DNA of 64,000 nucleotides, taken from NCBI GenBank assembly GCA_030148505.1, contig JASBTI010000034.1, forward strand, positions 1-64,000. Direction: 5' to 3'. The first letter of the stretch is position 1; each line of letters begins with the position of its first letter. The notes under the pieces were generated by a model that saw nothing but the letters and a program-made list of their open reading frames with translations, was not told the origin of the DNA and ran no database searches. This DNA is from Rhodanobacter sp. (lineage in GTDB: Bacteria; Pseudomonadota; Gammaproteobacteria; Xanthomonadales; Rhodanobacteraceae). Shown piece by piece: positions 3,371-24,816 of the stretch. A program made the translations under genes and the position numbers.

Positions 3371-3399
3371 TTGACAAAACATTAAATAAGCGTGATAAC
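3371..3399 (+). promoter_or_regulatory. Putative sigma70-type promoter upstream of TBDR1
   Basis: TTGACA (3371-3376), 17-nt spacer, GATAAC (3394-3399); 266 nt upstream of the TBDR1 ATG. Confidence 0.5.
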
Positions 3400-3636
3400 A
3401 GCGCCCAATGAACACGAGACGCGAGTTTCTGGAAGCGGCGCGCATCGAGCGTACGACGAAAAAACACGCGCACTGAAGCGTCACGGGGCTAGTTCACCTA
3501 GCGTTAGTTAACTGTTAATCTGCGCAGCGTCTGCGCTAGCTATCAGGCGTTTACCAGGTATTGCAACGCGTTCACATCGAAAGTCTTGGGGCAGTTTTTC
3601 GCTGCTCATGTTGGTAACAATTTGGAGGGTCTTTTC

Positions 3637-6603
3637 ATGAAACTTGGGGTCAAGAAACTTTCTACGGCGGTTCGCCTCGGGCTTTCGCTCGGTGCCGTTA
3701 TTGCCGTGGGCGCATCCGGTTCGGCATTCGCCCAAGATACGAGCAATCAGAGCACGGCCAATCCGCCTAGCCAGAAAAAGGCACAGACACTGCAGACGGT
3801 GGTAGTCACCGGCTCGCACATCCGTCGTGTGGATCTGGAAACCTCCAACCCGGTCGTCACCATCGACGCGGCCCAAATCAAGGCAACCGGCAAGTTGACT
3901 CTGGGCGATATCCTGCAGGATCTGCCGGCGGTCACCGGCGGCAACGTCAACCCGCAGGTCAACAACAGCGGCGGTACCGGCGGTTCGACGGTGGGCCTGC
4001 GCGGTCTCGGTGCGCAACGCAGCCTGCTGCTGATCAACGGCAAGCGCATCATCAACCAGGATCCAAATTCGATCCCGGCCGACATGATCGAGCGCGTCGA
4101 AGTGCTGACCACCGGTGCATCCTCAGTCTACGGCTCCGATGCGATCGGCGGCGTGGTCAATTTCATCCTGAAGAAGGACTACCAGGGCGCCCAGTTGACG
4201 TTGAACTATGGCGAGTCCGATCACAACGATGGGGCCAGCCGCGGTTTCCAGTTCACCTTTGGCCAGACCTCGGACAAGGGCAGCATCACAGCCGGCATCG
4301 ACTACAACAAGACCGATGCCGTACTGGCCAGCGCGCGCAAGTTCTCCCAGAACGCGGTGTCGATCTACGGCAGTACCGGTACGCCGATTTACAGCTACAT
4401 CGGTGGCTCCAGCTTCCCGCCGCATGGCCGCATCCAGCTTCCAGCCAATCTGAAGGCCCAGTACGGCTGCTCGAATGTGGCTGCCAATCCCGGTGCCAGT
4501 GGCCAGAACACCTCGACCGATTACCATTGCTTCACCAATGCTGACAAGTACAACTACGCGACCGTCAACCTGATCATGACGCCGCAGGAACGTACCAGCA
4601 TGTTCGTCAACGGCACCTATAATCTGGGTGATCATGTGACGGCGTACATGGATGCCTATCACAACAAGACCACGTCGGGCTTTCAGTTGGCGCCGCCGCT
4701 GTTCGGCACATTGTTTGGCGGCACGATCTCCAAAGACAGCTACTACAATCCGTTCGGCGTGAACTTCTCCTCCTCGAATGGCAACGACTTCCGTGCCCGT
4801 CTGGTCGCGGCCGGTAATCGCAGTGCCAACTACGGCACCGCCACCGATCAGGTGCATGCTGGCCTGAAGGGTGATTTCACGATCTTCAATCAAGATTGGA
4901 ACTACGATGCGGGCATCGGCTACGGTCATATCTCGCAGAGCTTGATTACTCGCGGTCTGCCCAACCAGGCACAGCTCAACAAGGATCTCGGGCCGTCCTA
5001 CATGAATGCCTCCGGGCAGGTCGTCTGCGGTACGCCGGGTGGTCCGACCATTAGTGGCTGCACGCCGTTCAATCCGTTCAACCTGTTTGACCCTAACTCC
5101 GTCAAAGCATTGCAGGCGGCGGCAGTGCCGGCGATCAGCAACAATTACAGCATCCAAAAGGTCTACTCGCTGGACTTGAATGGCGGCCTATTCGATCTGC
5201 CGGCCGGTACGGTGCAACTCGCGGCGGGCGCGTCCTACCGTACCGAGTTCACTAACAGCATTGTCGATCCGTTGCTGTTGATCGATCCGGCGACCGGCAA
5301 CTGCACCCTGGGTAGCCAGTGCGCCTCTGGCCTACGCGGCAACTACAACGTCAAGGAAGGCTACGCCGAGTTGTTCGTGCCGATCCTGTCGAACATGCCG
5401 GGCGTGCAGTCGCTGAACGTCACCATCGGTGACCGCTATTCCAAGTTCAGCACCTTCGGCAGCACCAATAACACCAAGTTTGCCGTCGAATACCGTCCGA
5501 TCAACGACTTGTTGTTGCGCGGTACGGTGGCCGAGGTCTTCCGCGCACCGACCATCAGTGATGTTTACGGTGCGGCGGCCAGCGATGCACCCAAGCTCAG
5601 CAATGATCCCTGCAACGGCTACACCGGCGGTGGCAATCCGGCCTGTGTCAACGTGCCGACCAATGGCACGTTCGTCAACCAGGACGTGGCCTTGGCCCAG
5701 CAGATCAAGGGCATTGCTTCCGGCTCACAATATGCGGGTTTCCCGTTGGGGCCGGAGCAAGGCAAGTCCTTCGACATGGGTTTTGTCTACTCGCCGCACT
5801 ACGTCCAGGGTCTGTCGGTCAGCGCGGATATATGGCGTGTCTATCTGAATAACACCATCGCGCCGATTGGTGCGCAGACGGTACTGAACCTGTGTTATGC
5901 CGGCGTCACCAAGTACTGCCCGCTGATCACGCGTCAGGGCCCCAACAGCTCCAACCCGGGCCAGATTGCCCAGATCGTCGAGCCGACCGGCAACCTGGGT
6001 CGCACCGACGTGAAGGGTGTCGACATGTCGTTGCGCTATCGGCTGCCGCAGTTCTCCTTTGGCAACTTCCTGCTCGGTATCGACGGTACCTATCTGGCAC
6101 GTTACGACCAGCAGACAGCACCAGGGGTGGCAGGCAATGCGATCTATCATGATGCCGGTCACTTCATGCCGTTTGGCTCGTCGCAGGCGGCAGCCTGCCC
6201 GAGCGGCGGCGGTGTCTGCTTGTTCCCGCGCTGGCGAGGGTCGGCCTTCCTGAACTGGAACCTGGGTAACTGGGATGCGTCCTGGCGGATGCGCTACATC
6301 GGCCGTTTCCAGAACGGCTCAAAGAGCCCGTCGCAGGATACCTTCCCGGCTCAGGTTACGTACTATCCGCAGTCACAGCTGCACGGCGTGGTATTCAAGT
6401 ACGGCGCCACGGTCTACAACGACGTGTCGATCGGCTACAACATCGAGCCGTACAACACCCGCGTATCGTTCGGTATCAACAACGCGTTCAACAAACAGCC
6501 GCCGTTCCTGTATGCGAACAACACGCTGAATGCCAACACCGATCCGAGCAACTTCGACCTGTTGGGCCGCTATTTCTGGGGCCGCGTCACGGTGAAGTTC
6601 TGA
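3637..6603 (+). CDS. TonB-dependent receptor (TBDR1)
   Basis: Signal peptide, LQTVVVTGSHIRR, plug motif (LRGLGAQRSLLLINGKRI), C-terminal beta-barrel ending in aromatic FWGRVTVKF; GGAGG upstream of ATG 3637. Confidence 0.9.
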   Translation: MKLGVKKLSTAVRLGLSLGAVIAVGASGSAFAQDTSNQSTANPPSQKKAQTLQTVVVTGSHIRRVDLETSNPVVTIDAAQIKATGKLTLGDILQDLPAVTGGNVNPQVNNSGGTGGSTVGLRGLGAQRSLLLINGKRIINQDPNSIPADMIERVEVLTTGASSVYGSDAIGGVVNFILKKDYQGAQLTLNYGESDHNDGASRGFQFTFGQTSDKGSITAGIDYNKTDAVLASARKFSQNAVSIYGSTGTPIYSYIGGSSFPPHGRIQLPANLKAQYGCSNVAANPGASGQNTSTDYHCFTNADKYNYATVNLIMTPQERTSMFVNGTYNLGDHVTAYMDAYHNKTTSGFQLAPPLFGTLFGGTISKDSYYNPFGVNFSSSNGNDFRARLVAAGNRSANYGTATDQVHAGLKGDFTIFNQDWNYDAGIGYGHISQSLITRGLPNQAQLNKDLGPSYMNASGQVVCGTPGGPTISGCTPFNPFNLFDPNSVKALQAAAVPAISNNYSIQKVYSLDLNGGLFDLPAGTVQLAAGASYRTEFTNSIVDPLLLIDPATGNCTLGSQCASGLRGNYNVKEGYAELFVPILSNMPGVQSLNVTIGDRYSKFSTFGSTNNTKFAVEYRPINDLLLRGTVAEVFRAPTISDVYGAAASDAPKLSNDPCNGYTGGGNPACVNVPTNGTFVNQDVALAQQIKGIASGSQYAGFPLGPEQGKSFDMGFVYSPHYVQGLSVSADIWRVYLNNTIAPIGAQTVLNLCYAGVTKYCPLITRQGPNSSNPGQIAQIVEPTGNLGRTDVKGVDMSLRYRLPQFSFGNFLLGIDGTYLARYDQQTAPGVAGNAIYHDAGHFMPFGSSQAAACPSGGGVCLFPRWRGSAFLNWNLGNWDASWRMRYIGRFQNGSKSPSQDTFPAQVTYYPQSQLHGVVFKYGATVYNDVSIGYNIEPYNTRVSFGINNAFNKQPPFLYANNTLNANTDPSNFDLLGRYFWGRVTVKF

Positions 6604-6634
6604 TCATCTAACGTCGCAAGAGGTTTGTCCTTTC

Positions 6635-6671
6635 GAGCCGTACGAGTATCCTCGTGCGGCTCTTTTTTTTT
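6635..6671 (+). terminator. Intrinsic terminator-like hairpin directly in front of TST1
   Basis: GAGCCGTACGAG-TATC-CTCGTGCGGCTC followed by a T tract ending about 9 nt before ATG 6680. Confidence 0.75.
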
Positions 6672-6679
6672 GAAGGCTT

Positions 6680-8500
6680 ATGACGACTTATTCCACTCAA
6701 GAGGTTTTCGCGGCGCTGCAAGGCGGCCAGTTCGGTCGGGCAGAGCAACTGGCCCGCGAACAGCTGCGACAGCGTCCGAAGGATCAGGATCTCTTATTGT
6801 TGCTGGCGGTCTGTTTGCGGGAACAGCAAAAGCCGGACGAGGCGCTGGCGATATTTGCCGAGCTCACTCAGCTGCAACCGGAAAACGCCGTGCATTGGGG
6901 CAATTACGCGACCGCATTGCGTGATACAGGCTCGATAATGGAGGCGGAAGAGGCTTATATGACCTCCTTGAAGCTTGCGCCCGACAACGCCGAGCAGTGG
7001 CTTAATCTCGGTCTGCTCAAGTTGCAGGACCGGGACTATCTTGGCGCACGCGATGCGTTATTGAATGCGTTTGCGAACGATCCACAATCCCCTGCCATCC
7101 GTATTCACGCGGCACGCGCTTGTTCCGCCTGCCGCGATGACCATCGCGTCGACGAACTGCTGAAACCGTGGCGCCACTGGGTGCCGCTGGAGGCCGAACT
7201 GCAATTCGAGCTGGCCAGCCTGCTATTGGCGTTGGGCGAAGCCAATACGGTGAGGGAGTTACTGGAAGACGCCCTGCGTATGGATCCGTTTCACCAGAAG
7301 GCAAAGCTGCTGCTTGGCAGCGTCTACGAGCGGGTAAATCGCCTGCAGGACGCCGAAAATCTATTGCAAGAAATCATTGCGGCCCACCCAGATCCCGATC
7401 AACAAGTGCGCTTGGAGATTGCTCACCAGCAGGCGACTTTGGCCCAACGCCGGGGTGATCTTGTCACCGCCAGGGCGATCCTGGACCGCGTCGGCCCGCG
7501 CAACCCCGGCGACTATGCCCACTACTACGTGTTGGCGGGTGTTTGCGACAAGCTCGGCGACCTGCCGGCGGCGCTCCAGGCGCTGGAGAAGGCGCACGCC
7601 AGCCAGGTCGAGGAGATGCGGGTGGTGGTGCCCTACCGCTTTGCGCCGGACGCACCGATACTTCCCACGGCCGTTACCCGTGTGAGCGAGGAGGACTATC
7701 GGCGATGGCCTAAGCTGAGCGCGCCGGATGCATCGCAATCGCCGGTGTTCATCGTCGGCTTCCCACGCTCTGGTACTACCTTGCTGGAACAGATGCTAGA
7801 CGCCCATCCGCGGTTGCAGTCGATGGACGAACGCCCCTTTTTCAACATCCTGGTGGACCAGCTGGCGAATCAAGGTTTCCAGTTTCCGCAGGATCTGCAC
7901 AAACTCGACCAGCGCGATTGCGACGAGCTGCGCAAGGCTTACGTCAGCATGGCCTGCAGCAAGGTGCCGCGGCGCTGGGACAGCCAACTGGTCGACAAGA
8001 ATCCAATGAACATGTTGTGGCTGCCGATGATGCATCGGCTGTTTCCGGAGGCCAAGATCATCCTCGCACTGCGCCATCCGTGCGACGTCATCCTCAGCAA
8101 CTATATGCAAAACTTCCGTTCCACCGTGCTGGCAATGGCATGTTCCACTATTGAACGCTTGGCCACCGCCTATGTGACGGCGATGGAATGCTGGCTGGAG
8201 CATGCGGCAGTATTTCACACCAACGTATTTATCTCCCGCTATGAGGATCTTGTCGCCGACACGGCGGGGCGTACCCGGCAGATTGCCGACTTCATCGGCA
8301 TCGAGGATGCTTCGCCGATGCTCAATTTCGATCAGCACGCGCGCGACAAGGGATATATCGCCACGCCGAGTTATGCGCAGGTCATCGTGCCTGTCAACCG
8401 CAAGGGGCTTAACCGCTGGGTTCGCTATCGGGAGGCGCTGGAACCTGCGCTGCCAATTCTGCAGCCGATGCTCGATCACTGGGGATACAGCGTCGACTGA
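6680..8500 (+). CDS. TPR-domain sulfotransferase (TST1)
   Basis: N-terminal TPR-like helices; PVFIVGFPRSGTTLLEQMLDAHP 5'-PSB motif in the C-terminal domain. Confidence 0.85.
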   Translation: MTTYSTQEVFAALQGGQFGRAEQLAREQLRQRPKDQDLLLLLAVCLREQQKPDEALAIFAELTQLQPENAVHWGNYATALRDTGSIMEAEEAYMTSLKLAPDNAEQWLNLGLLKLQDRDYLGARDALLNAFANDPQSPAIRIHAARACSACRDDHRVDELLKPWRHWVPLEAELQFELASLLLALGEANTVRELLEDALRMDPFHQKAKLLLGSVYERVNRLQDAENLLQEIIAAHPDPDQQVRLEIAHQQATLAQRRGDLVTARAILDRVGPRNPGDYAHYYVLAGVCDKLGDLPAALQALEKAHASQVEEMRVVVPYRFAPDAPILPTAVTRVSEEDYRRWPKLSAPDASQSPVFIVGFPRSGTTLLEQMLDAHPRLQSMDERPFFNILVDQLANQGFQFPQDLHKLDQRDCDELRKAYVSMACSKVPRRWDSQLVDKNPMNMLWLPMMHRLFPEAKIILALRHPCDVILSNYMQNFRSTVLAMACSTIERLATAYVTAMECWLEHAAVFHTNVFISRYEDLVADTAGRTRQIADFIGIEDASPMLNFDQHARDKGYIATPSYAQVIVPVNRKGLNRWVRYREALEPALPILQPMLDHWGYSVD

Positions 8501-8509
8501 AGGTGTCGG

Positions 8510-10141
8510 TCATTTGTCGGGGAGCTGCGCCAGCTCGGGGATATGCTCGGCATAGCGCCGCCAGCGTCCCACTGAGCGGGTATGGATCGGCTGGCGTGCT
8601 TGCCACAGGCTGGCGGTACCGATGGCGGTGGTAGGGTAAACGTCGCCGAGGCCGAAAAAGTCGCGCGTCGGCAACGCCAGCCAGGCCGACAACGCGGCGA
8701 AGCAGGCCGCAGGGTCGGCCGTCAATTGCTCGTAGGGTACGCGATAAATCGATGCCGGGTAACGGGTTGTCCAATGTTTCATCAGTCGCCGCGAGCCGTG
8801 GATGAAGGCCGCGATATCGGCAAAATCATAGGCGAACCCCTGGGTTCCCGGCTGAAAGGACTGCATCCACAGCGACAATGCGTTGTCGCGCGCGTTACGC
8901 TCGCAATAGACGATGCGTGCCTGCGGAAACATGCGCAGGATCAGGTCCACATGCATGAAGTTGTGTGGCTGCTTGTCAATGAACCAGTGGGCGTCCGAAT
9001 CGTCCTGCCGCAATTGCGCGGCATATTGATTTGTCGCCGTGGCAAGGCGGGCATGGTAGTCATCCGCCGTACCCGACATCTGTTCCGCCAACATCGGCAG
9101 CCACGGCAGTTCACCGCGGTGACATACCTCGGGGTGGCGAGCCAGCCTTTGGGCGAGCAGCGTCGTGCCTGAGCGCGGCGCACCGACAATGAATACCGGT
9201 ATCCAGTCGATGCGGCCTTCGTGAGCAGCCACGGGGAGATGGCGCGCGAGTCGCGCCTCGACGCTGCGCCGCCATTGCTTGCGCGGCCAGCGCGCTGTGG
9301 CGTTCACGCAGGTGTTGGCCTCGCGCCAATAGCGTGCGGCAGCAGCATATTCACCGATATCGTCATGCGCCTTGCCCATGGCGAATAGCAGGGATGTTCG
9401 CGCCTGCGCACTCAAGTCGGCTTGTTGCAGGCAGGCGTCGAACAGGGCGAAGTCGGGGTGCTCGCGGCTCGCATAACGCTGCAGGTCGGCCAAGCCCTGG
9501 GGTACCTGCCATTCAACGGCCCTGGCGCTGTTGGCGATGGCGAATTCGCGGCGCCGACGGGACAGTTCAAATTGTCCGAGCTGGGACAGTAGCATCCCGG
9601 CGTAGGCATACAGTCGCGGATCCCTCGATCCCTCGGCGATCTCCGCTTCGCAGATGTCGGACGCATCCTGCTTGCGTTCGCAGTCATCGAGTAATTCGAT
9701 GGCGCGAATGACCTGTTCGGGATCATGGCCTGGGTGCCGGAACAAACTTCGCATGACGTCGGCGAGGGCGGCCATCCGGCCTTGCCCCTTCAACACCCCC
9801 GTCAGCAAAAAGGCGGCGGCTGCATGATCCGGATTGTCGGCGAGTACGGCACGCAGCAGCGCTTCTGCGCGTTCTCCGGCGTCGCTCTCCAGCAGCACGC
9901 CGGCAAGGGCCAGTCGCACTTCCGTGGATCTAGGATGTGCGGATACGGCGGCGCTGAGTACCCGCAGCGCCACCGTGATATTTCCGCGCAGAACGAGTTC
10001 CTGGGCACAGGCAAGCCAGTGCTCCTCACCGCCGCCAGCGAGGGTATCGAGCAAGCTGGCGCAACTGCCATCACTATTGTCGTAGGTCATCAACGCAACC
10101 TGTGCAAGCGTCGCTGAAGCGCCATCTCGTGGGGTCGCCAT
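8510..10141 (-). CDS. TPR-domain sulfotransferase (TST2)
   Basis: TPR-like N-terminus; IPVFIVGAPRSGTTLLAQRLARHPEVCHRGELPWLP. Confidence 0.85.
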   Translation of the reverse strand: MATPRDGASATLAQVALMTYDNSDGSCASLLDTLAGGGEEHWLACAQELVLRGNITVALRVLSAAVSAHPRSTEVRLALAGVLLESDAGERAEALLRAVLADNPDHAAAAFLLTGVLKGQGRMAALADVMRSLFRHPGHDPEQVIRAIELLDDCERKQDASDICEAEIAEGSRDPRLYAYAGMLLSQLGQFELSRRRREFAIANSARAVEWQVPQGLADLQRYASREHPDFALFDACLQQADLSAQARTSLLFAMGKAHDDIGEYAAAARYWREANTCVNATARWPRKQWRRSVEARLARHLPVAAHEGRIDWIPVFIVGAPRSGTTLLAQRLARHPEVCHRGELPWLPMLAEQMSGTADDYHARLATATNQYAAQLRQDDSDAHWFIDKQPHNFMHVDLILRMFPQARIVYCERNARDNALSLWMQSFQPGTQGFAYDFADIAAFIHGSRRLMKHWTTRYPASIYRVPYEQLTADPAACFAALSAWLALPTRDFFGLGDVYPTTAIGTASLWQARQPIHTRSVGRWRRYAEHIPELAQLPDK

Positions 10142-10146: not shown

Positions 10147-11721
10147 TCAGCCTTGCCAGCCAGGCAGACCGAGAGCCCTGCGCAGCGGATCAAGCAAGGC
10201 GCCATAATGCGCCGTTCGTGCGGTGTCTTTGCGTAGGGGTTGACGTACCTGGGTCGCGCTGGGCGAACGCACTTCACGGGTAATTTCATGAAAACGCAGG
10301 CAAGCTTCTTCGAAAGGCAACTCGCAGAACGCCAGCAGTCGGCGTATCTGAGCCGAGGGGTCCGCCAGCATGGCTTCGTAATCATGCTGCAGGACGCGAT
10401 CCGGAGACAGACCGCTCCAATGCTGCAGGCTGCGATCACAGTCGCGCCAGAAACTTGCCAGATCCTCGAAATCACGCGCGTACTCGTTGTTGTCCATGCG
10501 CTGGCGGTAGCACGAAAAGCACGTCTCTAATGGGTCGCGGCGGCAACCGATGATATGCGCTCCCGGCAACATCGCCCGGATCGCGCCTATATAAATCCAG
10601 TTGCCCGGCAGCTTGTCGGTAAACAAGGGCCGTTCGCGCCGCCAATGCGCAGTGCGCGACAGGTAGCGCTGGCCTAGACGCTCCCAGTCCGCGGGCTCCA
10701 TCGCGTTGACCCAGCGCGGAAACGGCATATTGCGCCGCCGCGACTCCTCGGCGAGCACCTGGGGCAGATCCGCCAGCTCGCCGGCGCCCTGTACCGTCGA
10801 ATGCGAAGCCAGAATCTGCTCGACGAGCGTCGACCCCGAGCGCGGCAGGCCGACGATGAAGATGACCTCGCGACCCAAATCTTCAGTGGCATTGACGGGG
10901 ATTGGCGTAAAGGCCTCAGGGAGCGCATTGCTCGCCGCCGAATAGCCGGTGCGCTTCCATTTCTGGCGCTGCCTCGCCCGGGCATTGGCTTGCCGCAAGG
11001 CATCGAGTGCATCGCTATAGCGGCGGTTGTCGTCGAATGCCTTGGCCAAGGCAAAGCCGATGGCGATCAGATCGTCTGCCGTGGCCGCAGGTTGTCGCAG
11101 TGCAGCCTGCATCTGAAGAATGTCGTTTTCGTCCAGGCGCAGGGTTTTCAGATCGGCCAAACCCCACCAGGCCATCCCGGCCCATGGACGTTCGGCAATC
11201 ATCTGACGATAGGTGCTGGCCGCTGCGACGACATCGCCGCGCATCCGTAACAGGTCGGCCAGCAGCGCCCGCGCATCCATGTGATCGGCCGCCAAATCCA
11301 CCGCGCGCTGCAAGGCCGGCACGGCCTCTTCGTTGCGTACGCAGCGTGTAAGCATGACGCCAAGGTTGTACCAGGCATCCGCCATGTCGGGTTGCAATTC
11401 ACAAGTCAGCCGCAACGTTGTCACGGCCGCATCGTATTGGCCTGCCTGGCCCAGCAAGGTGCCCAAGGTATTGTGGTAGACCGGATCGCCGGGGCGCTTC
11501 GCCAGTGCGCGGCGCATGCAGCTTATCGCGTCCTGATGCTGCCCTCGCATCCCGTGGATTCCGGCCTGCATGCGCAGCGCCTCGGGATGCTCACGCTGTG
11601 CGGCCGGCAGCTCGGCAAGCTGGCGGTCTGCCTCGTCCACGCGCCCTGCATCGAGAGCCGTCGCGACAGCCGTCATGCAGCTCGCCGCTTGCTGACTCAA
11701 CCCTTCCAATCGTGGTGTCAT
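10147..11721 (-). CDS. TPR-domain sulfotransferase (TST3); start placed at 11721 (ORF is open to 11937)
   Basis: TPR repeats (DPVYHNTLGTLLGQAGQYDAAVTTLRLTCELQPDMADAWYNLGVML) then EVIFIVGLPRSGSTLVEQILASHSTVQGAGELADLP. Confidence 0.85.
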   Translation of the reverse strand: MTPRLEGLSQQAASCMTAVATALDAGRVDEADRQLAELPAAQREHPEALRMQAGIHGMRGQHQDAISCMRRALAKRPGDPVYHNTLGTLLGQAGQYDAAVTTLRLTCELQPDMADAWYNLGVMLTRCVRNEEAVPALQRAVDLAADHMDARALLADLLRMRGDVVAAASTYRQMIAERPWAGMAWWGLADLKTLRLDENDILQMQAALRQPAATADDLIAIGFALAKAFDDNRRYSDALDALRQANARARQRQKWKRTGYSAASNALPEAFTPIPVNATEDLGREVIFIVGLPRSGSTLVEQILASHSTVQGAGELADLPQVLAEESRRRNMPFPRWVNAMEPADWERLGQRYLSRTAHWRRERPLFTDKLPGNWIYIGAIRAMLPGAHIIGCRRDPLETCFSCYRQRMDNNEYARDFEDLASFWRDCDRSLQHWSGLSPDRVLQHDYEAMLADPSAQIRRLLAFCELPFEEACLRFHEITREVRSPSATQVRQPLRKDTARTAHYGALLDPLRRALGLPGWQG

Positions 11722-12171
11722 CCGGTCTCCAAGATTTCGCCGCCCCATGCCTACGCGCGACTTCTTCGTGGCGCAGGTAACGTCAGCAATCCGCATCTCG
11801 CCGCCGCACTGGTGTTGGCTACAGGTGGCCATTATGCCCGCTCGTCGGTGGCGAAAGGGTTGGGGGCATTGATGAGCTGCACGTCGCCATCGCTTTCGGT
11901 GCCTCGGGTCCACAGCGCCAGTCTTACTACCGGACAATCGGTAGCCCGACGTCGACTCCGAAGGCCTGACTTGGTCGACAAGAGGGAGTTCTGACTGCGC
12001 GCACCGCCGAGGAGGCCTTCGAAGACTGATCGCTAAATCTTGCGGCTGCGAGGAGACAATGACGATCTTGCGGGGAGATCCCCGAAGAAGGCCGATTTAT
12101 TAGTGCCGAACCGCAGTAAATTTCGCATTGTTGAGCGCATCAATTTGCGATTATACGCAAATAATAACGGG

Positions 12172-12201
12172 TGTTGACTTTTTGTTACGCGACTGTTTAG
12201 T
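12172..12201 (+). promoter_or_regulatory. Putative promoter upstream of TBDR2
   Basis: TGTTGACTTTTTGTTAC (12172-12188), 16/17 identical to the motif upstream of TBDR3; TTGAC is 252 nt upstream of the ATG. -10 not well defined (TTTAGT). Confidence 0.5.
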
Positions 12202-12425: not shown

Positions 12426-15400
12426 ATGTCCATAAAGCGTCAAAGTTATACCAATCTCAGAAAATCCGGGCTGGTGCGCCGCACTGCCTTGACGGTGGCG
12501 GTGACCGCCGCGCTTGCCATGACGGGCCAGGTAGCTGCCCAGTCCACTACGGGTACGATCTTCGGTACGGCCCCAGTGGCCGCCGGCGAAACGGTACTTA
12601 TCACCAACAACTCAGGCATTTCACGTGAAGTGGCGGTGGACGGTGCAGGTCAGTTTCGCGCCGGCAACATGCCCACTGGCGTCTACACGGTCACCTTGAA
12701 GAAAGATGGTGCTGTCGTGGACTCGCGCAAAGGCATCGCGCTGGCGCCCAACGCCGGTTCCTCGGTTTCGTTCGTCGCCAAGCCCACGACCGAAATGTCC
12801 GCCGTCACCGTTACCGCCGGCGTGCTTCCGGCTATCGATGTAACCAGCGTCAACTCGAGTACGGTCATTACGGCGAAGCAACTGCTGCAGTTGCCACTCC
12901 AGCAAAGTGCAGAGGCCATCGCACTGCTGGCGCCGAATACGGCCCAAGGTGCCGGTGCCTACTTTGGTAATCTGGTGTCCTTCGGTGGTTCGGGCGTAGC
13001 TGAGAATTCCTACTACGTCAACGGCTTTTCCACGGGCGACCCGTTCAAGAACCTCGGTGGCTTCCAGCTGCCTTACGGCGCGATCTCCCAACAGGAAACC
13101 CTGAGCGGTGGTTATGGCGCTAAGTACGGTCGTTCCGACGGCGGCGTAATCAACCAGATCGGCAAGAGCGGCACTGATCAGTGGCATTTTGGTGCCCTGT
13201 ATAGCATTGCTCCCGAGTCCTGGTCCGATAGCGTGGACAACCTTAATTATCCAAGCATCAGTCTCACCGCTCCGTATGCCCTCGCTGACCCGACCCTGCC
13301 GGGTACGCTTTACAGCTATGGCGGTAAGACCAACAGCTCAGAAGAGATCAACTCAGCCTATGTCAGCGGCCCGTTGATCAAGGATAAACTGTTCTTTTTC
13401 CTGGGGGTTGAGCACAAAAGGACCCACGGCACCAGTGTGTCCAACATCACGGATGGCCGCTTGCGGGAGTACAGCGACAACACCACCCGCTATTACGGCA
13501 AGGTCAACTGGAATATCGACAACAACAACACCTTGGAAGCGACGGTTCTCGACCAAAAGCAGACCAATGGCACGGGATCGACGTATAACTTCGACTACAA
13601 CACCTTTCAGCGCGGTGCCTTTATCACCCACAACGACAAGGTGCACAACGATGCGCGGTTCCTGATCGCCCACTACACCAGCTATATCAGCGACAACGCC
13701 ACCTTAAGCGTGTTGTGGGGTAAGGGTACGTTCAGTAATCCGACCCAACTGGGCAATCCAAGCACCCTGCCGCGTATCCTCGGTGGCAGATACCAAAATC
13801 CAGCGTTCTGGGCCGCGGGCACGAACCCGAACACCGGTATCACCAATAGTCAGACCAATACCTATGTCGGTTCGCCCGACGCCGCCGATGGCACTCATGG
13901 CCTGCGTGTCGACTTCAGCTACCAGCTGGACAGCCATTTGCTTGGCGTAGGTATCGACAACATGAACTACAGCGCGCATGACCAGGGGCGTCTGACCTCG
14001 GGGCCGAACTACTTCTGGTACTACCGTCCCGGCGGCACCACGGTACGCAAGTACTCGATCTTCGACACTACCAGCATGACAACCAGCCAGAAGGCGTTCT
14101 ACTTGCAGGATATCTGGCAGGTCGCGCAGAACGTCCAGTTGAACATCGGCGTGCGTAATGAGCACTACATCAACAACAACGATCTGGGCCAGGCCTTTGT
14201 CGACATGAAGAACCAGTGGGAGCCGCGCATCGGCGCCAGCTGGGATGTCAACGGAGACTCGACGTTCAAGGTCTATGGCAACCTGGGCCGTTATTACTTG
14301 GCGCTACCCAACAGCGTAGCCAAGCGTGCTGCCAACCGTTCCACCTACGTCGAGACCTGGTACAGCTACACGGGTATCGATCCAACCACCGGTGTGCCGA
14401 CTGGCTTGGCTGTGACACGTCCACAGTATTCGCCGGATGGCGAGGTGGGTACCCCGAAAGATCCCGGGCAGGTGGCCGCGTCCAATCTGCGTCCGCAGTA
14501 CATCGATGAGCTGATCGTCGGCTTCGACAAGCAGTTGAACGAAAAGTGGGTGTACGGCGCCAAGGCGATGTACCGCAAGTTGGGCACGGTAATTGATGAT
14601 GAATGTTCGCCCGGCCAGATTGCCGCCAAGATGACCAAGATGGGTCTGGACCCGAACCAGTACTATGACTCGCTCTACGGTGCCGCCTACTGCCGCCTGA
14701 TCAATCCGGGTCAGAGCAACAGCTTGTCCTTGAAGAAGGCAGACGGCACCTATACCAGCGTCACCATGACTCAGGCCGACTGGGGCTATCTGCAGAAGCC
14801 GAAGCGCAATTACACGTCGCTGAACCTGTATCTGGAGCATCCATTTGATGGCAAGTGGTACGGTCGCGTGGACTACACCTTGACCAACGCCAACGGCAAC
14901 ACCGCAGGTCAGACCCGACCGGACTTCGGCCAGGCCGATATCTCGAAGACCGAAGACTGGGATTCCTGGCAGCTAATGGCCGGCGCGAATGGCCAGCTGA
15001 TGAACAGCCGCAAGCACGTGCTGCGCATGTTTGGTGCCTATCAGCTCACCCCGGAGTGGCTGGTCTCGGCCACGGCGCTGATGCAGTCCGGCGTGGCTGA
15101 GGAGTGTCTGGGCTATTTCGGTGCGGGTTTGACCGATCCGACGGGTTATGGTCCGAACTACCACTTCTGTGCGGGCAAGGAGATTCACCCGGGCTACCAG
15201 CACACACCGTGGACACACACGCTCAACCTCGGTGTGCGGTATACACCGAACTTCGCCGACAAGAAGCTGGCATTCAAGGTTGACATTTACAACGTGTTCA
15301 ACGAGCAGAAGGCGACCCAAACAGATCCTGGGTTCGCGGCCGGCAGCGGTAACACTTCGTATTCCACGGCGGATTACATCGTATCGAACACCTTCCATAT

Positions 15401-15752: not shown

Positions 15753-17372
15753 TTAAGCCGACGGCACCTGGGTACATGCTTCTGCAAGCGCCAGTTGCAG
15801 CGGCTCAAGCTGTGCTTCGTAGTGTCGCCACTCGCCGAGACTGCGGGTGTGGACCGCTTCGCGAACCTGTGCGCTGCTGGGTGTGGCTACCGGTGCCGCG
15901 TTGCGTTCCGGGTGCAGGCAGTGCTCCTCAAGCTCCAGTCCGCAGTGCGCCAGAACCCCGCGCAGCGTCGTTTCCGTGTCGGTAACCAGCGCAGTGTAGG
16001 AAACGTCCAGCATCGCATTGGGGAATGCGCTGCGCCAGTGCGCGGTGAGTCGGACGTACTGCGTGTAGTAGTGGGCCAGTGACGGCATGTCGTAGCTATA
16101 TGCCGAAGCAGGACCGAGCATCGCCTTGAGATTGGAGAAACAGGTGTCCATCGGCTCGCGGACCATGTGCAGGATAGGTGCATGCGGTAGCGCGCGGTGG
16201 ATGAAAGGGACCATCCGCACGTTGATCGGCAGTTTGTCGATGTAGTAACGGCGTCCTTGTGCGCGCCATTGCGTCTGCATCAGATAGCGCCTGCCCCATT
16301 CCGCGAAATCAACGATCGGGCTGCGCTCGAGCGCTTTCAGCATGCCTTGCACACCACTTGCAGGAACGTCGGACATCCACAGCAACTGGCGCCGAAAGTC
16401 ATTGATTTCGCCTGCGGAAACAACTTGCGAGTGGCTGGAAATCATGCGATCAAGCAAGGTCGTGCCCGAACGCGGCATGCCAACGATGAAGATCGGGACA
16501 GGACCGACAAAAGCAGTACGCGTCCCGATAGACGCCGTACCGATGGCCTGCGACGCGCGGATAAGCGCTTCAGTCACCGCACTTTCGCCGGCTTCGTCAT
16601 ACGGACTGAGTGCGTGCATCAGCGCGTTGCTGGCTGCCAGTGCTGGCCATGCCTCGGCATACCGGCCAAGGTCGTCAAGCTCCTTGAACCGCGCGGACTC
16701 GAAGTTGGCCCGCGCAAAGCGGTCCGTCGGTAACGAGCTATTCGCCGGGATGCGCCGCAGCTGCGCTTGCAAGGTGTCGAGGTGGTTGCTTGCCGGTGTC
16801 TGCCTGCGCAGATTGGCCTGCGCCACCGCGGCGTCGCCGGAATCAGGCCAGCGATGCAGGTAATCCTGAAGCACGGTATCGGCTTGCCTGATGTCTCCGG
16901 TGTACTGACACAGCATCGCATGCAGGTAGAGCGCGTCCGGCGTGTCGACCCCTGCCGCCAGCGCCTGCTCCATCAGCGCCTTCGCCGACGCCATTTCGCC
17001 GAACATCCAGCGCAATTGGGCCTGGCTGGCCAGCATGGGGGCTGACAGTTGGCGCTTCATCGCAGGGTGATCCATGCAGGCGCGCGCAGCCACGATTTCC
17101 CCGTTGAAGTACAACTGGCGTATCAACTCGACGATCAGTTGAATATCGTCGGGCAGCGTGTTCGCGACCTGCAGCAAGTGATGGAGAGAGGCGCGCAACC
17201 GGCCGCGTTGACGTATCACGCCGGCGAGCTCGACGCGCGCGTGGGCATCGTGCGGGGTCAGCTGCAGCAAAGACTCGAGTGTCGCCTGCGCTGCATCCAG
17301 CAGGCCTGCCGCCAGGTACTGGCTGGCGCGACGGCGAAGACGGCTCTCTGTGGAAATCACATCGGTGGTCAT
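15753..17372 (-). CDS. TPR-domain sulfotransferase (TST4)
   Basis: VPIFIVGMPRSGTTLLDRMISSHSQVVSAGEINDF; N-terminal TPR-like region. Confidence 0.85.
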   Translation of the reverse strand: MTTDVISTESRLRRRASQYLAAGLLDAAQATLESLLQLTPHDAHARVELAGVIRQRGRLRASLHHLLQVANTLPDDIQLIVELIRQLYFNGEIVAARACMDHPAMKRQLSAPMLASQAQLRWMFGEMASAKALMEQALAAGVDTPDALYLHAMLCQYTGDIRQADTVLQDYLHRWPDSGDAAVAQANLRRQTPASNHLDTLQAQLRRIPANSSLPTDRFARANFESARFKELDDLGRYAEAWPALAASNALMHALSPYDEAGESAVTEALIRASQAIGTASIGTRTAFVGPVPIFIVGMPRSGTTLLDRMISSHSQVVSAGEINDFRRQLLWMSDVPASGVQGMLKALERSPIVDFAEWGRRYLMQTQWRAQGRRYYIDKLPINVRMVPFIHRALPHAPILHMVREPMDTCFSNLKAMLGPASAYSYDMPSLAHYYTQYVRLTAHWRSAFPNAMLDVSYTALVTDTETTLRGVLAHCGLELEEHCLHPERNAAPVATPSSAQVREAVHTRSLGEWRHYEAQLEPLQLALAEACTQVPSA

Positions 17373-17556: not shown

Positions 17557-19149
17557 TCAACCGAGCGCCTGCCGCAAGGGCTCCAGCTGCTTGGCGTAGT
17601 GTTCCCATTGACCGACGTTGCGTGTATGGACGGGTTCCCGTACCTGCACGCTGCTTGGCGTGGCGACCGCCGCCGCGTTGCGCTCCGGATGCAGGCAGGC
17701 ATCTTCCATCGCCAGCCCGCAGTGATCCAGTACCCGACCCAGGGTGGCTTCCGGTTCGCTGACCAAAGCGGCGTAGGACACATCGAGCATGCCTCCGGGA
17801 AGGGTGGCATGCACATGGTTTACCAGACGCCTGTACTGCCCGTAGTAGTGCGCCAGTGCCTTCATCTCGTAACAGTAGGCTGAAGCATTGCCGAACATGG
17901 CCTTCAGATTGGAAAAGCACACATCCATCGGCGCACGCACCATATGCAGGATCGGTGCATGCGGCAAGGCACGGCGGATGAAGGAAGCCAGGCGAATGTT
18001 GCTCGGCAGCTTGTCGATGTAATACCTGTGTCCCTGCGCACGCCATTGAGTCTGTCGGAGATAGCGTGCTCCGAGTTCCGCGAAATCCATGTCGGTGAAG
18101 GTCGCAGTTGCCTTCAGCAGACTGTGCACGCCATTTGGCGCAACATCCGCCATCCAGTGCACCTGATGCTGGAAGTCGTGGATCTCGCCGGCGGAAACCA
18201 CATTGGAGTGAGCGGACAGCATGTGGTCTAGAAGGGTTGTGCCTGAACGCGGCAGACCGACAATGAAGATGGGTGTGGGGCCAGTAGGCGCCGGTGTGGT
18301 AGCGGGCGGTAGGGATGCTGCGCCGGGTACCTGCAGCAGTGCATCGGTCAAGGCGGTCTCGCTTGCCGCATCATACGGATTCAGTTCATGCATGGACGCA
18401 TTGCTTCTCGCCATCGCCGCCCACGCTTCGTCGTAACGACCGAGATCGTCGAGGACTTTGAACAGCGCCGATTCGAATTCGGCGCGGACAAACCGTACCC
18501 GCGCATCTGCGGAATTTTCGGGAATCCGCTCAAGGCTTTCGCGCAACACCGCCAAGTCGTTGGCCGTCGGGGTATGCCTGCGCAAATTCGCCAGCACTAC
18601 CGCGGCATCGCCATAGTCCGGCCAGCGCCGCAGACAATCCCGCAGTGTCGCCTCGGCCTCATCGATGCGTCCGCTAAACTGGAACAGCATGGCGTTCAGG
18701 TAATACTCCCCCGCGCTGGCGATGCCTCCCGCCACCGCCCGATCCATGCGTTCCCTTGCGGCGGGTATCTCCCCCAGCATCCAGCGCAACTGGGCCTGCT
18801 CGGTGAGCACCTCGGTAGGTGGGGCGGGTGCACGTTCAAGGTGCGCAGCACAGGCGCGCGCTGCCAGCGTTTCGCCATGGATCGACAAATGCCATGCCAA
18901 TTGCGCGATCAGCGACGTGTCATTGGGCAGCAAGGGTACGGCCTGCAGGAACGCCCGGGTTGCCGCACGCATCTGGCCGCGCCTGAGCAGCACACTGGCA
19001 AGCTCCATGCGCACTGAAACATCGCGTGGTGTGTAGTGCAGGAGTGATTCGAGGGCGTTTTGGGCCGCAACCCATTGCTGCGTGTCGACGTACTGGCGAG
19101 CATCGCGGCGAAGATCGGCTGGCCTCGCGAGGTTGTTCAATGCATCCAT
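17557..19149 (-). CDS. TPR-domain sulfotransferase (TST5); start placed at 19149 (ORF is open to 19338)
   Basis: TPIFIVGLPRSGTTLLDHMLSAHSNVVSAGEIHDF; closely related to TST4 and TST6. Confidence 0.85.
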   Translation of the reverse strand: MDALNNLARPADLRRDARQYVDTQQWVAAQNALESLLHYTPRDVSVRMELASVLLRRGQMRAATRAFLQAVPLLPNDTSLIAQLAWHLSIHGETLAARACAAHLERAPAPPTEVLTEQAQLRWMLGEIPAARERMDRAVAGGIASAGEYYLNAMLFQFSGRIDEAEATLRDCLRRWPDYGDAAVVLANLRRHTPTANDLAVLRESLERIPENSADARVRFVRAEFESALFKVLDDLGRYDEAWAAMARSNASMHELNPYDAASETALTDALLQVPGAASLPPATTPAPTGPTPIFIVGLPRSGTTLLDHMLSAHSNVVSAGEIHDFQHQVHWMADVAPNGVHSLLKATATFTDMDFAELGARYLRQTQWRAQGHRYYIDKLPSNIRLASFIRRALPHAPILHMVRAPMDVCFSNLKAMFGNASAYCYEMKALAHYYGQYRRLVNHVHATLPGGMLDVSYAALVSEPEATLGRVLDHCGLAMEDACLHPERNAAAVATPSSVQVREPVHTRNVGQWEHYAKQLEPLRQALG

Positions 19150-19357
19150 CGATGGATGGTATCCGCATCCTCCGCAGGGTGCCAAATGGCCATTACCCGA
19201 ACGTCGCGCGCCGCGCGCTGTCCTCTGCCGCCGCCGAAACACGCGCACAAGCCGGAACAGATGTAGCCCGCGTCGTGCATCCATGAGGACGCTGTTGGCG
19301 TCCGGGTATTGCTTGATCTGCCTGAGCGTCGCGAACATGCTTCATGACAGCTTGCTG

Positions 19358-20983
19358 CTAGGGCTGCACGCGCGCTGGTTGAAGCGAGCCAGCAAGCGCC
19401 AGCCGCAACGGTTCCAGATGTCGCGCATAGTGCTGCGATTGGGCGAGACCACGCGTGTGAATGGACTCACGTACCTGGGCACTGCTGGGTGTAGCTACCG
19501 GGGCGGCGTTGCGTTCCGGACGCAGACAACTGGCTTCGAACTCCAGCCCGCAATGCTTCAGTACCCTTTGCAGGACGACATCCGGCTTCCGCACCAGCGC
19601 CTCATAGGACACGTCGAGCATTGCGCCGGGCATCGTGGTGTGCCATTGATGCGTCAGACGCGCGTACTGGCCATAGTGTCGGGCGACCGCCTGCATGTCG
19701 TTGCTGTAGGCGGAAACATCGCCAAACATGGCGCGGAAGTTGGAGAAGCACACTTCCATCGGTTCGCGAACCATGTGCAGTAGCGGTGCATGTGGCAAGG
19801 CGCGACGGATAAACGGGACCATCTGGACATTGATCGGCAGCTTGTCGATGTAGAAACGGTGTCCCTCAGCACGCCATTGCGTCTGCTTCAGGTAGCGGGT
19901 GCCGAGTTCGGCGAAGTCGATCTTCGGACTGTGGCGTATCACCCGCAGCATCGCGTCAATGCCGCCGGGGGCGACGTCGGCAGCCCAGTGCAACTGCCGT
20001 ACAAAATCGTTGATCTCACCGGCAGAAACCACGGCCGAATGGCTGGAGAGCATGCGGTCGAGAAGAGTGGTGCCCGACCGCGGCATGCCGACAATGAAGA
20101 TGGGCGTCGGTTCGTCGGCTCCGGTTACCGCAACATCCGGGCCGGCGATGATCGATTCGGACTGGCTGATCAGCGCATCGATCACAGCCGCCTCGCCACT
20201 GGCGTCGTAGGGATTCAAGGTCGACATGATGGCCTTGCTGCGCTCAAGTGCGGGCCACGCTTCGTCGAAACGACCAAGGTCGTCGAGCTCCTTGAATACT
20301 GCCGCTTCAAACTGCGCGCGGGTCAGCTGGCCGCTTGGGTCTGAGGGGTTCGCCGGCATCCGCTGAAGCTGCTCGGACAGAAATGCCAGATGGTTCGATT
20401 CCCGCGTCTGTCTACGCATATTCGCCAAGGACATGACGGCTGTGCCAAAGCGGGGCCAGCGGCGAAGACACGTCTCAAGCATCTGCTCAGCTCGGGAAAC
20501 CTCACCTGTGAACTGGTAGAGCATGGCTTGGGTATGGTGTTCGTTCGGGGTGTCGATCCCGGCCGCGATCGCGCGGTCCATCCAGGTTCTGGCCACCGGA
20601 ATTTCTCCGACCATCCATTTCAAATGAGCTTGCGCTGCGAGTACGGAGGCCTCCGGCGAGGGTAGACGCGCCAGATGGTCCAGACAGGCGCGTGCTGCCA
20701 CCACCTCGCCGCAGTGGAGTAGTTGCTGAGTCAGCTGAATGAGCGGCGCTGGCTCGTCGGGAGGCCTGTCCACGGCCTGCAGCAGGTGGGTGGTCGCCGC
20801 TCGCGGCAGATCGCGCCATAGCAACACCCTGGCGAGATCCATGCGTGCAGGGGTGTCTTCCGGTACGCGTTGTATCAGGGCCTCGAGCGTGGCTTGCGCC
20901 GCCCCCAGTTGCTGGTTGTCAATGTATTGCCGCGCCCGACGGCGAAGACGATTTTCGGCGGTGGAGAGCGTCTGCGAAATCAT
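19358..20983 (-). CDS. TPR-domain sulfotransferase (TST6)
   Basis: TPIFIVGMPRSGTTLLDRMLSSHSAVVSAGEINDF; closely related to TST4 and TST5. Confidence 0.85.
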   Translation of the reverse strand: MISQTLSTAENRLRRRARQYIDNQQLGAAQATLEALIQRVPEDTPARMDLARVLLWRDLPRAATTHLLQAVDRPPDEPAPLIQLTQQLLHCGEVVAARACLDHLARLPSPEASVLAAQAHLKWMVGEIPVARTWMDRAIAAGIDTPNEHHTQAMLYQFTGEVSRAEQMLETCLRRWPRFGTAVMSLANMRRQTRESNHLAFLSEQLQRMPANPSDPSGQLTRAQFEAAVFKELDDLGRFDEAWPALERSKAIMSTLNPYDASGEAAVIDALISQSESIIAGPDVAVTGADEPTPIFIVGMPRSGTTLLDRMLSSHSAVVSAGEINDFVRQLHWAADVAPGGIDAMLRVIRHSPKIDFAELGTRYLKQTQWRAEGHRFYIDKLPINVQMVPFIRRALPHAPLLHMVREPMEVCFSNFRAMFGDVSAYSNDMQAVARHYGQYARLTHQWHTTMPGAMLDVSYEALVRKPDVVLQRVLKHCGLEFEASCLRPERNAAPVATPSSAQVRESIHTRGLAQSQHYARHLEPLRLALAGSLQPARVQP

Positions 20984-21660: not shown

Positions 21661-24600
21661 ATGAAAAAACATATTTATACCGATACGAGGAGATCCGGGC
21701 TGCTACGCCGCACTGCCTTGACGATGGCGGTTGCTGCTGCCTTTGGCATGACGGGTCAGGTGTTGGCCCAGTCGACCACCGGCACGATCTTTGGTACGGC
21801 ACCCGTCGCTGCCGGCGAAACCGTACTCATCCAGAACGCCAACGGCCTCAACCGTGAAGTGCCAGTGGATTCCAGTGGCCGGTATGCTGCAGGCGCTTTG
21901 CCTCTGGGCACGTATACAGTCACTCTGCGCCAGAACGGCAAGACCGTTGATCAGCGCAACAACGTTACGCTCATCGTGGGTGCAGGCACCAAGGTCTCGT
22001 TTGGGGGCGCCCCGAATACCACCACGCTCAACGCATTGACGGTTACCGCAAGTGCGCTGCCCGCCATCGACGTTAGCCAGGTCGATACCCGCACCGTGGT
22101 GACGTCCCAACAACTTGCCAGGCTGCCGTTGCAGCGCAGCGCGGAAGCCGTTGCCTTGCTGGCACCTGGCGTGAATACCGGCAGCGGCTACTTCACCGGT
22201 CCCACCGGCCAGACTCTGGTGTCGTTCGGTGGTTCTTCAGTGGCGGAGAACGCCTATTACCTTAATGGCTTCAACACTACCGATCTGCTGCACAATTTCG
22301 GCGGCCTGACTTTGCCCTATGGCGCGATCGATCAGGAACAGGTGTTGACGGGTGGCTACGGTGCCGCCTACGGTCGTTCCGACGGTGGTGTACTTAGCCT
22401 CGTGGGCAAGCGCGGCACTAATGAATGGCACTTCGGCGCCAAGGTGTTGTGGCAACCTGATTTCGGCATGGCGGATCCTGCCAACCAGTTCTATCCGAGC
22501 GGCCCGCAATTCAAGGCCAATGCAAACGGCGGCAGGCAGGGGCAAATCTATCGCTACCGAGCCCGCAACAAGTCGTGGGAGCACATTGAAGATGCCTATT
22601 TTGGCGGTCCGCTGATCAAGGACAAATTGTTCATCTTCGGTGCGGTCGAGGCGGATCACATCGTCAGCGGCAACGATGTGGCAAACGTCAACACGCAGAC
22701 GGATACCACCTACAGTTATTCGCGGCCGAAGTGGTACGGCAAGATCGATTGGAACATTAACGACAACAACATCCTTGAATTCACGGGTGCATCAAACAAG
22801 ACGTCGTACTCGGGTAATGTCTACAGCTACACTTATACCCCGGGCCAGAACAGGGGTACGCGAGGTGCGTACTTGTCGCCGGCAACCCATACCAAGGATG
22901 GCGCCGACGCGTATATCGCCAAATACACCGGTTATCTGACCGACAACCTCACGGTTGAGGCCTTGTACGGCAAGATGACCCAGACCAATTATACCCAGGC
23001 GGCCGGTGGACCCGACGCTTACGTCATCAATTCACAGTTCCAGAATCCCGCGTACGCTCCCCCTCCTGGTTATGTGGGTACACAAACCGCCGCGACGGCG
23101 AATGATCCCCGTGCGCACGACAAATCCACCAATCTGCATTTGGACATCAATTACAAGGTGGGCAACCATTCGATCACCGCGGGTATCGACAATCTCGATG
23201 TCCGAGCTATCGATATCGGTACGGCCCCGACCGGACCAGGTTACTTCTGGGTCTATGGTCAGGGCGCGCCGAATCTGCCGATCAGCACACTGCCTGGTGA
23301 GAGTGTCGGTGCGCCAGGTGGTCAGGGCTATTATGTTGCGCAGGAAATTTACTCTAATTCGGCCAGCGTCAGGGTAAAACAGACGGCTCAATACATTGAG
23401 GACAAGTGGCAGGTGAATGATCGTCTGCTTTTGTCGCTCGGCTTGCGCAATGATCAGTTCACCAACTACAACCCGGCGGGTGCGGCATACCTGCGCTTGA
23501 CTAAACCGCAGCTGGCTCCGCGCCTCGGCTTTACCTGGGATGTGTATGGTGATTCCAGCCTTAAGGTCTATGGCAATGCGGGTCGCTACTATTTGGATGA
23601 ACCGGCCAATGTCGCGGTTCGCGGCGCTGCTGGCAGCATCTTCACGGATCAGTATTTCACTTATACCGGCATCGACCCGACCACGGGTGCGCCTACCGGG
23701 CTGACCCAGATCACGCAGAGTCGCTATCCGGGCGTTTCGGCCAACAACGAATTCGGCCAGCCACCTGACCCGAAGACGGTAACCAGCAAGAACGCCAAGG
23801 CGGAATATCAGGACGAGTACATCGCGGGCTTCGACAAGTCACTGAACATGTTCGGGCAGAAGTGGGTGTACGGTGCCAAGGCAACGTTCCGGGTATTGCG
23901 CAACGCGCTCGACGATGTCTGTCAGGGTGATACCCTGGCTGCTGCCGCTACGCAGCAAGGTCTTGATCCGGTTGCGGCTCAGGGTTCGGGCTGCTACATC
24001 ATGAATCCCGGCAGGCTTTCAACCTTCAATGTGCCCAACGCGACCGGCGGCGGATACAGCACCTTGACGGTGCCGTGGTCGGCCTGGGGCATGCCACGAA
24101 TGAAACGTCGGTACGGCGCGCTCGGTCTCTATCTGGAACATCCGTTCGACGGCAAGTGGTTTGGCCGGATCGACTACGTCTGGTCGCACAGCTACGGCAA
24201 TTACGAGGGCTCGGTCCTGTCCTCGATCGGCCAGCAGGATGTGTCCCAGAGTGAAGCGTGGGACAACAGTGGTGTGATGACGTATTCCGGTGGTTCGCAA
24301 GCAAATGATCGTAGGCATCAGCTTAAGGCCTACGGTTACTATCAACTCACGCCCGAGTGGCTTATCGGCGGCAACCTGCAGGTCTTGTCGGGTACCCCGA
24401 AGGTCTGTCTGGGTTACTTCGGTGCGCAGCAGGTGGATCCATTCGGCTACGGCGGTTCCTATCACTTCTGCGGGCCGAACGGCACACCGGCACCTCCGGG
24501 TTCCACCGGACGCACGCCGTGGCAGGAAATCCTCAGCCTGAATGCTGAATACCGGCCGGCGTGGGCGGGCAAGAAGCTGGCGTTCGATGCGATGATCTAC

Positions 24601-24741
24601 AACGTGTTCGATCAACAGAAGATCACCCAGTTCCGGGCCTACTCCGAATCGGGTCCGGGCACCACCAGTGTGAACTATCAGGTCCCGCTCTACATGACGC
24701 AGCCGCGTTACCTGCGGCTTTCGGTCAGCTACGACTTCTGA
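21661..24741 (+). CDS. TonB-dependent receptor, Oar-like, with N-terminal carboxypeptidase-regulatory-like domain (TBDR3)
   Basis: N-terminus nearly identical to TBDR2 (GQVLAQSTTGTIFGTAPVAAGETVLIQN); barrel ending PRYLRLSVSYDF. Confidence 0.9.
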   Translation: MKKHIYTDTRRSGLLRRTALTMAVAAAFGMTGQVLAQSTTGTIFGTAPVAAGETVLIQNANGLNREVPVDSSGRYAAGALPLGTYTVTLRQNGKTVDQRNNVTLIVGAGTKVSFGGAPNTTTLNALTVTASALPAIDVSQVDTRTVVTSQQLARLPLQRSAEAVALLAPGVNTGSGYFTGPTGQTLVSFGGSSVAENAYYLNGFNTTDLLHNFGGLTLPYGAIDQEQVLTGGYGAAYGRSDGGVLSLVGKRGTNEWHFGAKVLWQPDFGMADPANQFYPSGPQFKANANGGRQGQIYRYRARNKSWEHIEDAYFGGPLIKDKLFIFGAVEADHIVSGNDVANVNTQTDTTYSYSRPKWYGKIDWNINDNNILEFTGASNKTSYSGNVYSYTYTPGQNRGTRGAYLSPATHTKDGADAYIAKYTGYLTDNLTVEALYGKMTQTNYTQAAGGPDAYVINSQFQNPAYAPPPGYVGTQTAATANDPRAHDKSTNLHLDINYKVGNHSITAGIDNLDVRAIDIGTAPTGPGYFWVYGQGAPNLPISTLPGESVGAPGGQGYYVAQEIYSNSASVRVKQTAQYIEDKWQVNDRLLLSLGLRNDQFTNYNPAGAAYLRLTKPQLAPRLGFTWDVYGDSSLKVYGNAGRYYLDEPANVAVRGAAGSIFTDQYFTYTGIDPTTGAPTGLTQITQSRYPGVSANNEFGQPPDPKTVTSKNAKAEYQDEYIAGFDKSLNMFGQKWVYGAKATFRVLRNALDDVCQGDTLAAAATQQGLDPVAAQGSGCYIMNPGRLSTFNVPNATGGGYSTLTVPWSAWGMPRMKRRYGALGLYLEHPFDGKWFGRIDYVWSHSYGNYEGSVLSSIGQQDVSQSEAWDNSGVMTYSGGSQANDRRHQLKAYGYYQLTPEWLIGGNLQVLSGTPKVCLGYFGAQQVDPFGYGGSYHFCGPNGTPAPPGSTGRTPWQEILSLNAEYRPAWAGKKLAFDAMIYNVFDQQKITQFRAYSESGPGTTSVNYQVPLYMTQPRYLRLSVSYDF

Positions 24742-24777
24742 TCGCGCATGACATCAACGGCCGAACGTTGATGGAGG

Positions 24778-24816
24778 TAAAAAAGCACCCCCGCCTTTGC
24801 GGGGGTGCTTTTTTTT
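24778..24816 (+). terminator. Intrinsic terminator after TBDR3
   Basis: AAAAAAGCACCCCCGC-CTT-TGCGGGGGTGCTTTTTTTT. Confidence 0.85.

Follow-up and report, generated by a model that had tools for sequence, protein, structure and literature searches.

Pairing of TonB-dependent receptors with TPR-sulfotransferases in Rhodanobacter and its relatives suggests that bacteria chemically decorate their own receptors

In animal AspH, the aspartyl/asparaginyl beta-hydroxylase, tetratricopeptide repeats (TPRs) are joined to a hydroxylase domain, and the enzyme hydroxylates secretory proteins. The O-GlcNAc transferase OGT and the O-fucosyltransferase SPINDLY follow a protein-modifying logic in which a TPR superhelix is succeeded by a transferase domain. 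Two further systems involve sulfotransferases: the eukaryotic tyrosylprotein sulfotransferases (TPSTs) TPST1 and TPST2 (PDB 3AP1, 5WRJ, 8W5Z), with R78, E99, K158, and S285 as the catalytic residues of TPST2 (PMC5562738), and RaxST of Xanthomonas, a sulfotransferase dependent on 3'-phosphoadenosine 5'-phosphosulfate (PAPS) that modifies a polypeptide while it is still cytosolic and not yet exported (PMC6637879). Here, we analyze a locus in a 64,000-nucleotide stretch of Rhodanobacter sp. DNA (assembly GCA_030148505.1, contig JASBTI010000034.1, positions 1 to 64,000; hereafter the window) in which TonB-dependent receptors (TBDRs) lie among TPR-sulfotransferases (TSTs), an architecture for which a literature search found no reported function. 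We read the locus as an expanded example of a recurring TBDR and TST module, accompanied in many relatives by a TPR-hydroxylase or a fusion, in which the TSTs may sulfate the precursor of the receptor or of a protein that works alongside that receptor. This is a reading that we favor without being confident of it.

The locus consists of three TBDRs and six TSTs, nine intact genes between 3.6 and 24.7 kb of the window. When the nine open reading frames (ORFs) were re-called, they gave the order and orientation that a first-pass annotation had described, TBDR1> TST1> <TST2 <TST3 TBDR2> <TST4 <TST5 <TST6 TBDR3>. That annotation was also right that no unrelated large gene interrupts the series, as the interval holds TBDR and TST genes only. 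The features are as follows.

3586..6603, + strand: TBDR1, classical TonB-dependent receptor (Pfam Plug 1e-21, beta-barrel 4e-25; likely start about 3637)
6680..8500, + strand: TST1, TPR-sulfotransferase (PF13469 2e-37 and TPRs; 76 bp past TBDR1, codirectional)
8510..10141, - strand: TST2, TPR-sulfotransferase (PF13469 1.3e-35, TPR; orthologue at the equivalent site in locus L046)
10147..11937, - strand: TST3, TPR-sulfotransferase (PF13469 8.5e-41, TPR; likely start near 11721)
12426..15458, + strand: TBDR2, Oar-like TonB-dependent receptor (PF25183, Plug, CarboxypepD_reg)
15753..17372, - strand: TST4, TPR-sulfotransferase (PF13469 3.7e-43, TPR; convergent with TBDR2)
17557..19338, - strand: TST5, TPR-sulfotransferase (PF13469 9.9e-44, TPR; likely start near 19149)
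19358..20983, - strand: TST6, TPR-sulfotransferase (PF13469 6.8e-43, TPR)
21661..24741, + strand: TBDR3, Oar-like TonB-dependent receptor (PF25183, Plug; least secure member of the set)
24841..25872, - strand: GrxRhod, glutaredoxin-rhodanese protein (Pfam; right border, outside the module)

A Plug domain is present in all three TBDRs, and the barrel is PF00593 in TBDR1 and PF25183 in TBDR2 and TBDR3, which identifies them as TonB-dependent receptors. TBDR2 and TBDR3 have the Oar-like domain set (carboxypeptidase-regulatory domain, Plug, PF25183) in Pfam and are paralogues of 44.5% identity. TST4 to TST6 form a tandem triplet, 57% identical, while TST1, TST2, and TST3 share about 25–31% identity among themselves and with the triplet. 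Receptors stand directly next to TSTs, as in the codirectional TBDR1-TST1 and the convergent TBDR2-TST4 pairs. An upstream sequence, TGTTGACTTTTNGTTAC, is common to TBDR2 (window 12173-12189) and TBDR3 (upstream of 21661) and is possibly a common promoter; GTTGACA occurs upstream of TBDR1 at a similar position. In the upstream motif search, the best matches fell within the end of the preceding gene.

All six TSTs match PF13469 above the cut-off (E 1e-35 to 1e-43) and carry TPRs, which places them in the sulfotransferase superfamily. The PAPS-binding P-loop described for them earlier (PRSGTT or PRSGST) is present in 6/6, and no signal peptide is evident on inspection, in line with the same annotation. 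A high-confidence AlphaFold2 model of TST1 (predicted local distance difference test score, pLDDT, 91.7; predicted template modelling score 0.87) combines about nine pairs of TPR helices with an alpha/beta sulfotransferase domain. The TPR part resembles SPINDLY and OGT in sequence and has its best structural matches there, and the fold of the catalytic part corresponds to that of tick and human TPSTs. In a profile search of the PDB, TPSTs were the closest solved relatives of the catalytic domain (about 1e-30 to 1e-33), nothing else scored better than 1e-18, and CurM-type sulfotransferases came next. R363, E384, K440, and S564 of TST1 align with the catalytic R78, E99, K158, and S285 of TPST2 and are invariant in 39 TSTs. 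Two very large ORFs with a TST-like domain were also seen (L150:9527-14605, 1692 aa; L152:1018-6228, 1736 aa).

TSTs differ from TPST1 and TPST2 in being cytosolic and TPR-fused instead of membrane-anchored. By Pfam and in the model, their N-terminus is TPR with no anchor, so the Golgi type II topology is lacking, and they are members of PF13469 rather than TPSTs proper. They differ from OGT and SPINDLY in that the transferase domain is a sulfotransferase and not a glycosyltransferase. By analogy, we infer that TSTs would work like OGT and SPINDLY, by TPR-guided protein modification, with a TPST-type reaction. Judged from sequence and model, the overall architecture suggests that the substrate is a protein, and the active site suggests O-sulfation with PAPS as donor; the acceptor residue can be read from neither. 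The earlier proposal of a protein substrate is supported by the TPR and TPST-like architecture, with tyrosine, the acceptor it chose, as a candidate only.

Whether TSTs and TBDRs keep company in general was addressed with 60 sulfotransferase-centred 20-kb stretches from relatives (40 from the same genus, 20 from other families of the order) and 40 control stretches from elsewhere on the same contigs. Genes were called with a simple GC-frame caller, and receptors were recognised with profiles built in this analysis. Among genes within 1.5 kb of a TST, TBDRs accounted for 26/125 in the genus and 16/72 in the order, against 10/687 control genes, that is, about 21% versus 1.5%; beyond 4.5 kb, the genus and order stretches held at most one TBDR per bin. 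The enrichment P-values range from 1e-11 to 1e-15 and are inflated by orthology. In a separate set of 80 named loci chosen by TST pattern alone, the counts were 40/252 within 1.5 kb and 3/386 beyond 4.5 kb. The geometry is operon-like: 69 of the 85 directly adjacent pairs are codirectional, with a median gap of 77 bp when the TBDR is first and 57 bp when the TST is first. The association is seen again in six further families of the order, and pairing is also found in Halieaceae, Woeseiaceae, Steroidobacteraceae, Alteromonadaceae, Sphingomonadaceae, Caulobacteraceae, and Hyphomonadaceae, the evidence for Caulobacterales and Sphingomonadales being single named loci. The neighbourhood statistics proposed in the first-pass annotation as a check are thus strongly positive.

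Chance proximity through the abundance of TBDRs was considered and rejected, given the enrichment over controls and the genome-wide counts. The genome (3.68 Mb, 49 contigs) encodes 7 PF13469 proteins, 6 of them in this locus, and 23 Plug domains, 3 of which belong to receptors of the locus. The probability of at least three TBDRs in 21 kb is about 3.5e-4, a post hoc value that also counts the paralogues TBDR2 and TBDR3. TST profile matches occur in 193 of 200 sampled Pseudomonadota genomes, part of which will be TPR-only matches.

Trees and synteny extend the statistics. The label of adjacency is clustered on both trees, with 35 changes versus 66 after shuffling for TSTs and 27 versus 49 for TBDRs, and the TBDR tree forces at least 16 changes of the label. 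In one receptor subclade spanning several families, 26/26 members adjoin a TST, a figure favored by the sampling of receptors near TSTs. In ten other genomes of the genus, every TBDR1 orthologue (at least 75% identity) has a PF13469 domain no more than about 2.2 kb away, and a paralogue caught in a control stretch (L075) likewise adjoins a TST. TST3 is syntenic in L046, L038, L018, L027, and L246, and the GrxRhod right border is conserved in L046, L038, L036, L018, L027, and L047. A TBDR3 relative in L252 (66%) lies directly upstream of a TST1 orthologue. TBDR2 relatives (55–58% identity) sit with TST4-6-like enzymes beside nagA and nagB-II. The TBDR2/TST4-type pair therefore occupies two different genomic sites, the nagA/nagB-II locus in relatives and the GrxRhod locus here, from which we conclude that the pair moves as a unit. 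Statistics, trees, and synteny together support the initial claim that sulfotransferases and receptors belong together.

The same data bear on the possibility that the proximity is non-functional, a variable locus having gathered receptor and TST cassettes by transfer or tandem duplication with no common task. What lies between the GrxRhod and FabI-like genes does differ among species, TST4 to TST6 are a recent triplication, and a sizeable share of TSTs stands apart from any TBDR (see below). Set against this, TBDRs and TSTs stand side by side again at unrelated sites and in distant families, closely spaced and codirectional, and we consider a non-functional origin improbable.

A further partner, invisible from the window alone and new here, changes the picture. 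A family of TPR and Asp/Asn beta-hydroxylase proteins (PF05118) is enriched beside TSTs in relatives. Like animal AspH, these proteins combine TPRs with the hydroxylase domain; they differ in being bacterial and in lying beside TBDRs and TSTs, and some hydroxylases of the related loci are fused to a sulfotransferase. Loci picked by the TPR-hydroxylase alone had a TBDR within two genes in 10/19 cases and a TBDR or TST in 14/19, compared with 4.6% of control genes having a TBDR within two genes. Short stretches centred on the best PF05118 matches, mostly short proteins, contained neither a TBDR nor a TST (0/30). The TPR-hydroxylase occupies a syntenic place in L046, L038, L036, L018, and L027. 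In L046, the closest syntenic relative, the order is TBDR1> TST1> <TST2 <TST3 TPR-AspH> <GrxRhod, and the TBDR2> <TST4-6 TBDR3> stretch of the window takes the place of the hydroxylase.

The two activities are also joined in single chains. PF05118-PF13469 fusions occur in the same clusters (L018:7331-9313, L027:10957-12927, L155:11473-13404) and elsewhere (L260:8637-12512), and a genome search found ten full-length fusions in seven genomes. The halves are adjacent separate genes in genomes G022 and G027, and the genome of the window keeps only the hydroxylase half (G000:C32:4514-5494). The fused hydroxylases keep an HxD...H pattern. An AlphaFold2 model of the fusion, built from too few sequences (five), reached a pLDDT of 51 and was not used. 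This pattern of fusion and fission links hydroxylase and sulfotransferase activities in one process. Nine loci encode, no more than two genes away from a TST, a beta-propeller-like protein (about 307 aa; for example L169:10728-11657 and L142:14225-15163) that matches nothing in Pfam or NCBIfam, and several of these loci also have a short hydroxylase and a TBDR.

The first-pass annotation had offered two options, sulfation of receptor precursors or co-secreted peptides, and sulfation of a small ligand. In the second, the TSTs would make the ligand by sulfating a small molecule, glycan, or lipid, and the receptors would recognise this product or take it back up. TBDRs do import ligands, and many sulfotransferases, with the CurM type next after TPSTs among the PDB relatives of TSTs, use small molecules or glycans. 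The TPR domains, however, indicate protein partners, and Pfam reveals no biosynthetic genes inside the locus; none is a common enriched neighbour of pairs either. Moreover, one pair type sits in an N-acetylglucosamine (GlcNAc)-catabolism locus, where the substrate should be external, whereas PAPS and TSTs are cytosolic. The ligand option is therefore unlikely, and the data agree better with sulfation of the receptor or of a protein that accompanies it.

Another alternative, modelled on RaxST and its substrate RaxX, is that the TSTs act on a distinct protein or peptide, secreted or located at the surface, that is encoded elsewhere or was missed and that the receptor imports or senses. The resemblance to that system is that Xanthomonas belongs to the same order and that RaxST is likewise a bacterial PAPS-dependent sulfotransferase. 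In a published table, a sulfotransferase and an aspartyl beta-hydroxylase are numbered next to lasso-peptide genes (PMC10040529), a hint, taken from the numbering, that both chemistries may act together on peptides. No TPR is described for RaxST, and the TST locus has receptors as neighbours in place of raxX, raxA, and raxB; with no conserved small ORF present either, the RaxX-RaxST system was rejected for this locus. A search for a co-secreted RaxX-like peptide found none: 990 short ORFs near pairs yielded only families that resemble conserved upstream DNA. Codirectional gaps of 57–77 bp leave no room for a gene in between, and the locus has no exporter or protease gene. We give a separate protein or peptide substrate a low probability. 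Receptor modification is favored over ligand synthesis because biosynthetic and precursor-peptide genes are missing and one pair type lies in the GlcNAc locus.

Receptor modification might proceed as follows. The TPR superhelix would bind a polypeptide that is still cytosolic and unfolded. The likeliest candidate is the not yet Sec-exported precursor of the receptor encoded alongside, another being an exported protein associated with that receptor. With PAPS as donor, the catalytic domain would then sulfate this polypeptide. In loci that have a hydroxylase, a single protein would receive both modifications, and the hydroxyl just added may itself be what is sulfated. Modification would alter the ligand recognition, stability, or exposure of the receptor, and several TSTs per receptor could mean several sites or several receptors.

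Several observations weigh against receptor sulfation. About 44% of TSTs (88/201) have no TBDR adjoining their run, and the closest TBDR3 relative (G015, 74%) has no nearby TST. R101 of TPST, which binds acidic substrates, is not kept in TSTs. Conserved columns and residue contents of 42 aligned receptors of the paired subclade revealed no conserved acceptor site or motif. The TPR-hydroxylase is absent from this genome, and the window locus has neither it nor a fusion. A literature search found no published sulfated outer-membrane receptor, and nothing on point for TPR-sulfotransferases with TBDRs or with hydroxylases.

Some TSTs without a TBDR (L009, L010, L012, L013, L039) lie beside heme A synthase-like and heme O synthase-like genes, and their role may differ. 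Outside the module, the window encodes a bacterial protein (29547-30950, + strand) matching MATCAP, the microtubule-associated tyrosine carboxypeptidase (PF08014, 3e-107).

The genomic pairing suggests that bacteria chemically decorate their own receptors. In its widest form, which we put forward as rather doubtful, Proteobacteria would have dedicated cytosolic hydroxylation and sulfation of outer-membrane receptors before export, with TPR-selected substrates and possibly with sulfation of a hydroxyl installed by the hydroxylase, a counterpart of receptor modification in the eukaryotic secretory pathway. Through its genomic tie to TBDRs and its fusion-linked hydroxylase, an orphan TST family leads to a testable claim, namely that sulfation and hydroxylation of outer-membrane receptors occur in bacteria. 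If this holds, such modification would be easily lost in routine proteomics, and receptor specificity, sensitivity to phages and bacteriocins, and nutrient uptake could be tuned by it.

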